From: Devosia ginsengisoli
GTDB lineage: Bacteria > Pseudomonadota > Alphaproteobacteria > Rhizobiales > Devosiaceae
Reading direction: 5' to 3'
Length of the DNA stretch: 64,000 bases
Assembly: GCF_024707105.1 (NCBI RefSeq)
Contig: NZ_JANQAJ010000011.1
Coordinates: forward strand, 569,488 to 633,487
Notes under the pieces: generated by a model
Told to the model about the DNA's origin: nothing
Database searches by the model: none
Seen by the model: the letters and a program-made list of their open reading frames with translations, nothing else
In this document: piece after piece, positions 17,281 through 19,049 of the stretch
How positions within the stretch are numbered: the first letter of the stretch is position 1
Layout: each line of letters begins with the position of its first letter
Position numbers and translations under genes: made by a program

Positions 17281-18585
17281 CTAGTTGGCGTAGATCGGGA
17301 AGCGCGCCGTAAGCGCCTTGACCTTGGCGCCCACAGCGGCCTCGACGGCGGCATTGCCCTCATCGGAATTGGCTTCGCGCAAGCCGTCGAGAACCTCGAC
17401 GATCAGGCTGCCGATTTCCTGGAACTCAGCGACGCCAAAGCCGCGCGTCGTGCCGGCGGGCGTGCCGAGGCGAATGCCCGAGGTCACGAAGGGCTTTTCC
17501 GGGTCGAAGGGAATGCCGTTCTTGTTGCAGGTGATGAAGGCGCGGCCAAGCCCCTGCTCCGCCCGCTTGCCGGTGGCATTCTTGGGGCGCAGGTCCACCA
17601 GCATCAGGTGGTTATCGGTGCCACCGGACACCACGTCGAGGCCGTGGCTCTTGAGCGCTTCGGCCAGCGCGCGGGCATTGTCCACCACCTGGCGGGCATA
17701 GGCCTTGAATTCGGGCTGCAAAGCTTCCTTGAAGGCCACGGCCTTGGCGGCGATGACATGCATCAGCGGCCCGCCCTGGAGTCCCGGGAAGACGGCCGAA
17801 TTGATCTTCTTGGCGATATCCTCGTCATTGCTGAGGATCATGCCGCCGCGCGGGCCACGCAGGCTCTTGTGGGTCGTCGTGGTGGTGACATGCGCATGCG
17901 GGATCGGTGAAGGATGCATGCCGCCGGCCACGAGCCCGGCGATATGGGCCATGTCCACCATGAGATAGGCGCCGATGGAATCGGCGATCTGGCGGAAGCG
18001 TTCCCAGTCCCAGATACGGGAATAGGCCGTGCCGCCGGCCAGGATCAGCTTGGGCTTGTGCTCATGGGCCAGGCGCTCAACCTCGTCCATGTCAAGCAGG
18101 TGATCGTCGCGCCGCACCCCATAGGAGACGACGTTGAACCACTTGCCGCTCATATTGACCGGCGAGCCATGCGTCAGATGCCCACCCGAATTGAGATCGA
18201 GCCCCATGAATGTATCGCCCGGCTGCAGTAGCGCCAGGAACACGGCCTGGTTCATCTGGCTGCCGGAATTGGGCTGCACATTGGCGAATTTGGCGCCGAA
18301 CAACTGCTTGGCGCGCTCGATGGCCAAGGTTTCGGCCACGTCGACGAACTGGCAGCCGCCGTAGTAGCGCTTGCCGGGGTAACCCTCGGCATATTTGTTC
18401 GTCATGATCGAGCCCTGGGCCTCGAGCACGGCGCGCGAGACGATGTTTTCCGAGGCGATCAGTTCGATCTCGTGCTGCTGGCGGCCCAGTTCGTTCTGGA
18501 TGGCTTCAGCGATCTCGGGATCGGTCTCGGCCAGCGTGTTGGAGAAGAAATTGGGAAAGAGCGAGGAAGACGTGGCGGCGCTCAT
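17281..18585 (-). CDS. glyA: Serine hydroxymethyltransferase
   Basis: [35 protein letters not shown]; start placed at MSAATSS. Confidence 0.97.
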
Positions 18586-18710
18586 GGAACAATGACCTCG
18601 CAAGAGACGAAATGGGTCGACATGGCCATGGCTTTATCATGTCGCGAAGTGCGATTCCAAGGCCGGGAAAGAAGGGATAGATACATAAGGGGCTCCCTGG
18701 TTGCGGATGG

Positions 18711-18787
18711 GTGCCCAGGCGAGCGGCTCTACAAGGTTCGCGTTCCCCGATGGTTCCCCATCTTTTCTCGCCAGTCGCGCGAACGGC
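18711..18787 (-). ncRNA. ZTP riboswitch (pfl motif) aptamer in the glyA 5' leader
   Basis: Minus strand: GTTCGCG-CGACTGGCGA-gaaaa-GATGG-gga-CCATC-GGGGAA-CGCGAAC-cttgtaga-GCCGCTCGCCTGGGCA; P1 GTTCGCG/CGCGAAC, P2 GATGG/CCATC, and pfl-like signatures ACUGGCGA, GGGGA and CGCCUGGGC. Confidence 0.85.
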
Positions 18788-18836
18788 CAAGTTATGGCGC
18801 AGAATACGCGGCAGGGGAAGTGACCAAACCCGCCAT

Positions 18837-19049
18837 TCAGGCAAATTTGCCGGAACTGGCCGGTAGTGGCGGCGCGGCCTCCCCCAGCTTCTTGCGCAGC
18901 TTGGCCAGGGCAATCTGCTGCATCTGGTATTTGTTGGCCGATACGGGCGTGATGACGATGACTTCGGTGCCTGATGCGGCGTCGATGGCGGCGACCCGCA
19001 TCTGCTGGCCGACCTGCACGAATTCGAAATAGACCTCACTGTCGGCCAT
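18837..19049 (-). CDS. Small conserved hypothetical protein (possibly DUF6898-like)
   Basis: 70 aa MADSEVYFEFVQVGQQMRVAAIDAASGTEVIVITPVSANKYQMQQIALAKLRKKLGE. Confidence 0.6.
   Translation of the reverse strand: MADSEVYFEFVQVGQQMRVAAIDAASGTEVIVITPVSANKYQMQQIALAKLRKKLGEAAPPLPASSGKFA

Follow-up and report, generated by a model that had tools for sequence, protein, structure and literature searches.

We analyzed a 64-kb window of the genome of Devosia ginsengisoli, the window being the whole stretch of 64,000 nt. The gene glyA, encoding serine hydroxymethyltransferase (SHMT; NCBIfam NF000586, 654.8 bits), lies at 17281–18585 on the minus strand and is followed by nrdR, ribD, and nusB. Its own Shine–Dalgarno sequence, GCGAGGT (18595–18601, minus strand; GAGG at 18599–18596), is conserved in the leader alignment. 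The glyA leader contains a ZMP/ZTP aptamer, a short upstream open reading frame (uORF), and two candidate promoters, one directly before the aptamer and one inside the uORF. Located 5′ of the aptamer, at 18837–19049 of the same strand, is an ORF of 70 amino acids, the C-terminal part of which recurs before glyA in relatives (for example, L128 and L131).

A cmscan search of a 901-base stretch placed the ZMP/ZTP aptamer (pfl motif, RF01750) at 18706–18788 of the minus strand, with a score of 64.5 bits (cut-off, 39), an alignment spanning the whole model (positions 1–86), and an E-value of 5.2e-10 for the stretch searched. All core letters of RF01750 were matched in the alignment: CUGGCG (J1/2), GGGGA, GCCG...CGCCUGGGC, and the CGCC/GGCG pseudoknot. 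The sequence-only reading had recognized a ZTP riboswitch here from GTTCGCG/CGCGAAC (the P1 stem), CGACTGGCGA, GATGG/CCATC, GGGGA, and GCCGCTCGCCTGGGCA; each of these elements was found on the minus strand, and the covariance-model score is decisive for the assignment. Judged by its sequence, the glyA-leader RNA is a textbook ZMP/ZTP aptamer, of a class known to sense purine or folate stress, with ZMP/ZTP as the predicted ligand. It was the sole Rfam match in the window and the sole ZTP match in the genome. Annotation pipelines that use Rfam would label such an aptamer, and taken alone it is an ordinary new representative of an established class. The pairing of the pfl motif with glyA, on which that reading also relied, is a combination already published (PMC2864571).

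ZTP matches were present in 62 of the 75 genomes of the genus Devosia, in 82 of the 136 genomes of Devosiaceae (5 of 16 genera), and in 21 of 385 genomes spread over the class Alphaproteobacteria. By-eye identification places the aptamers of relatives before other purine or one-carbon genes as well, namely purH, folD, and a second gene for SHMT. Several Devosia genomes have no riboswitch (G003, G006, G017, G035, G098, and others), and in some of them glyA occupies a different neighborhood. A literature search found no paper on Devosia riboswitches; the papers containing both words appear, by their titles, to deal with other subjects.

In the minimum free energy (MFE) fold of the leader, GCTCGCCTGG (18724–18715, minus strand), which forms the loop and 3′ strand of aptamer P3 together with the CGCC pseudoknot segment, is base-paired with CCAGGGAGC (18700–18692), which contains the Shine–Dalgarno sequence of the uORF, GGGAG (18697–18693). 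The former segment is a candidate anti-Shine–Dalgarno sequence; in the latter, GGGAGCCC is conserved in the Devosiaceae ZTP leaders. A pairing of the 3′ aptamer segment with downstream sequence had been proposed beforehand at 18693–18701; the fold agrees with this, the downstream segment lying one base off, at 18692–18700. The free and bound states are mutually exclusive, so the ligand should expose GGGAG, and an ON switch is expected. ON logic is also implied for the class by the terminators that overlap many pfl RNAs (PMC2864571). The fold energy of the whole leader was not unusual (z = 0.07), the signal of the anti-Shine–Dalgarno duplex against shuffled sequences was weak (mean z of −0.8 over 69 loci), and the predicted exposure of the site rose from 0.24 to 0.31 in the bound state under a crude model without pseudoknot energies. 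Covariation is not visible for this pairing because the aptamer segment is invariant. Independent support for a ribosome-binding-site switch comes from the GGAGCC site, which is also found directly before the starts of purH and the second SHMT gene in Devosiaceae relatives. No intrinsic terminator was found on the glyA strand, and such a terminator was rejected as the expression platform, in agreement with the sequence-only remark that a clear poly-U tract is missing. The translational platform suggested in the same reading fits both the fold and the absence of a terminator; the site that would be sequestered, however, serves a uORF coupled to glyA, not glyA itself.

This uORF, identified in the ORF list at 18582–18686 of the minus strand, has 34 codons, and its stop overlaps the glyA start codon as ATGA (18585–18582). 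The comparison set consisted of 69 measurable Devosiaceae glyA leaders. In these leaders, the uORF start codon lies 24–31 nt past the aptamer core, comes after GGGAGCCC or a sequence very like it, and opens a frame of approximately 32–42 codons; the conserved ribosome-binding site of the uORF stands approximately 110 nt before the glyA start. The TGA of the uORF falls inside the ATGA of glyA in 65 leaders, while the overlap is broken in the other four—by an indel in L002, L013, and L072 and by fusion in L092—so it is not strictly essential. In L092 (G116), which belongs to the sister genus, uORF and glyA form one continuous frame, yielding GlyA with an N-terminal extension of approximately 33 residues. 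Such a fusion is expected if ribosomes initiating at the uORF start make GlyA, and nature thereby offers a test of whether translation begins at the start codon under putative riboswitch control.

The overlap might also mean little: the riboswitch could control glyA directly, the uORF being incidental. Other alphaproteobacterial ZTP switches adjoin their target gene, L159 has a glyA-like gene 33 nt past the aptamer, and glyA nearly always starts with ATGA, so that any open ORF in the appropriate frame ends there. For this last reason, frame preservation is the proper test. The interval between the uORF and glyA starts varies from 95 to 125 nt and equals 2 mod 3 in 65 of the 69 leaders. According to parsimony counts on the glyA tree, which are approximate and rest on this one gene tree, 14 of 19 length changes within the interval were multiples of three, compared with 2 of 26 in the spacer between the aptamer and the uORF start (Fisher p = 6e-6); the frame-changing ones in the uORF sit on single tips or on one two-tip branch. 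The uORF frame was open in 65 of 65 intervals, a figure fixed by construction, as the intervals were chosen as reaching the overlap; the contrast lies with the other two frames, open in 21 and 8. The multiple-of-three indels, the openness of this frame relative to the other two, and the distance of the conserved ribosome-binding site from glyA make direct control an unlikely reading. Elsewhere in the class, the readable leaders of a small sample have the ZTP aptamer right at its target—folD, purH, SHMT, PfpI-like genes, and one exporter-like gene, as assigned by eye—without such a relay ORF; several loci were not parseable. On this small sample of the class, the relay arrangement appears to be confined to glyA of Devosiaceae.

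Within Devosia, the uORF peptide follows the pattern PWNR...RDK...CEV, and its conserved look could suggest a regulatory leader peptide, at which ribosome stalling would act as a second sensor after the riboswitch. However, PWNR, RDK, and CEV are the translated −35 box, −10 box, and glyA Shine–Dalgarno sequence, respectively. The pN/pS ratio of the uORF was 0.82 overall versus 0.23–0.34 at the start of glyA; outside the motifs, the two main stretches gave values of 0.88 and 1.1, and codons 13–15 a value of 0.74. The sister genus reads the same nucleotides in other frames (LGIA..MIK, SLES..ACYT), thereby encoding unrelated peptides while keeping the stop overlap; across the two genera, the CTTGGAATCGC motif occurs in all three uORF frames, and the ATGA overlap is constant. 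The low peptide constraint and the shift of frame between genera indicate that the peptide is not the conserved thing. A conserved small protein is ruled out by the same pN/pS values and frame change, and a stalling leader peptide is, in our estimation, highly improbable. The best model is a uORF that would be selected for its open frame and the position of its stop, its sequence itself being irrelevant. The unrelated matches to the uORF motif from a genome-wide DNA pattern scan, for example in Verrucomicrobiales, Acidimicrobiia, and Kuenenia, are probably due to chance, the pattern being loose.

The boxes translated within the uORF belong to a candidate promoter, P2, recognized by motif conservation at 18633–18661 of the minus strand: CTTGGA (18661–18656), N17, and GATAAA (18638–18633). 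CTTGGA was found in 64 of the 69 Devosiaceae leaders, and the CTTGGA-N17-GNTANN spacing in 64; the form is CTTGGA-N17-GATAAA in the window and CTTGGA-N17-GCTACA in the sister genus. The distance from the beginning of the motif to the glyA start is 70–78 nt in nearly all leaders, and no occurrence is expected by chance in the window. Relatives without the riboswitch carry CTTGGA with GCTA(C/G)A or GATAAG at the equivalent place before glyA; the pattern was seen in about half of the displayed leaders of this kind, with near variants in several others. The consensus of alphaproteobacterial housekeeping promoters is CTTGAC-N17-CTATAT, which we take P2 to resemble. P2 is most simply explained as a candidate sigma70-type promoter, the putative old promoter of glyA. 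A second candidate, promoter P1 (18791–18820, minus strand), consists of CTTCCC (18820–18815), N18, and CATAAC (18796–18791) and was recognized by the conserved CTTtccct...ATAA; in 67 Devosiaceae leaders, the motif CTTtcc-N18-cATAA occupies a near-fixed position immediately 5′ of the aptamer. Transcription from promoter P1 would begin at approximately 18784, which is base 1 of the aptamer's P1 stem. Neither candidate was listed by the promoter scan, the consensus of which is that of E. coli.

The best explanation of these features, and one we regard as probable, combines ligand-gated initiation at the uORF and termination–reinitiation at the ATGA overlap with an internal basal promoter. Without the ligand, GCTCGCCTGG would pair with CCAGGGAGC and mask the ribosome-binding site of the uORF; with ZMP/ZTP bound, P3 and the pseudoknot would take up GCTCGCCTGG, and the site would be freed. 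Ribosomes would then translate the uORF, terminate at the overlap, and start again on glyA. Shorter, riboswitch-free transcripts supporting basal glyA expression would come from the candidate promoter within the uORF, which probably is the ancestral promoter of glyA. The relay ORF with its embedded, probably ancestral promoter is well supported by sequence comparison as a conserved architecture, and the mechanism is put forward as a proposal. Folding gave no consistent sign that the ribosome-binding site of glyA is more masked in long than in short transcripts (14 versus 15 loci in the two directions), and structural masking specific to the long transcript was rejected on these counts; why glyA would depend on the relay is therefore the main gap of the model.

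The uORF may alternatively act as a ribosome cover, either instead of or besides relaying ribosomes: Rho would terminate transcription in the untranslated uORF, and ligand-induced uORF translation would shield the RNA. Toward its 5′ end, the uORF is rich in C and poor in G (C/G of 3.2, with C exceeding G in 62 of 64 loci), but the first codons of glyA are likewise C-rich (C/G of 2.55), and hence the bias is not specific. The lack of an intrinsic terminator on the glyA strand is also compatible with Rho, and the metE B12 switch of Mycobacterium tuberculosis is reported as probably involving this factor (PMC11260477). Cover alone, on the other hand, would not need the exact stop/start overlap kept in 65 of the 69 leaders. 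We consider a contribution of Rho possible, although less probable than the proposed relay. A third role would be that of a ribosome standby site, from which glyA would be translated without translation of the uORF. The precedent is the SAM-II riboswitch of metA in Sinorhizobium meliloti, also an alphaproteobacterium, where the riboswitch Shine–Dalgarno sequence is needed for translation starting 74 nt downstream (PMC9373788). Standby binding would maintain neither an open frame nor a start codon nor the stop overlap, and we regard it as improbable.

In aptamer sequence and structure, as well as in having glyA as a target, the locus resembles known ZMP/ZTP riboswitches (RF01750; PMC2864571, PMC7266159), and their ON logic is expected here as well. 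The usual ZTP platforms are a terminator or the target gene directly, whereas in Devosia a 34-codon uORF stands between, with a candidate promoter inside it. In metA of S. meliloti, translation does not use the first AUG (AUG1), AUG2 farther downstream is in frame, and the stretch between them contains a terminator (PMC9373788), unlike the out-of-frame uORF of Devosia, which ends on the glyA start. The B12 riboswitch of ppe2/uPPE2 in M. tuberculosis is translational, with an AUGA uORF overlap, and it was shown to work mainly by termination–reinitiation (PMC11260477). The likeness to this system is that of a uORF, in Devosia with proposed gating by the riboswitch, that ends in an overlap with the following start codon (18585–18582 in the window). 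The ppe2 element differs in its ligand, B12, and its class, and is an OFF switch, and the consulted sections of its description mention no internal promoter (PMC11260477); the Devosiaceae leaders, unlike ppe2, offer family-wide conservation and evidence of frame preservation. The novelty of the locus lies in the relay ORF with an embedded promoter, a variant of the known riboswitch–uORF arrangement.

The evolutionary reading toward which we lean, by a small degree, is that the ZTP riboswitch of Devosiaceae was placed before an existing glyA promoter and may reach the gene via a sequence-free relay ORF translated across that promoter. If this is true, the same leader yields two mRNAs, a long one gated by the metabolite and a short one without such gating, and the ORF is selected only for its openness and end position. 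A real relay would also offer a route for adding a riboswitch before a gene while keeping the old promoter, and would constitute a family-wide case of an ORF that is translated and retained for its frame, its peptide having little function or none. The locus further advises caution, since the target ribosome-binding sites of riboswitches and adjacent small "conserved peptides" are open to misreading; in this leader, what looks like a peptide motif is a candidate promoter.

Several other loci of the survey deserve mention. Genes of the DJ-1/PfpI-like type, assigned by eye, follow ZTP riboswitches in Devosiaceae and elsewhere (L029, L073, L112, L146, L149, L155, L161). In a distant alphaproteobacterium (L151, G199), the riboswitch adjoins a LysE/RhtB-type exporter-like gene (MDALFLFILTSLALTGSPGPNTLSLAAL...), also judged by eye, which is an unexpected target. 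In L122 (G072), a palindromic element (TCTGGCGG...CCGCCAGA) located approximately 200–300 bases before glyA seemingly stands in place of the 5′ part of the aptamer. P3, the ribosome-binding site, and the uORF are retained in this leader, and the Rfam score is down to 39.1 bits; this locus possibly represents a natural loss of ligand sensing.
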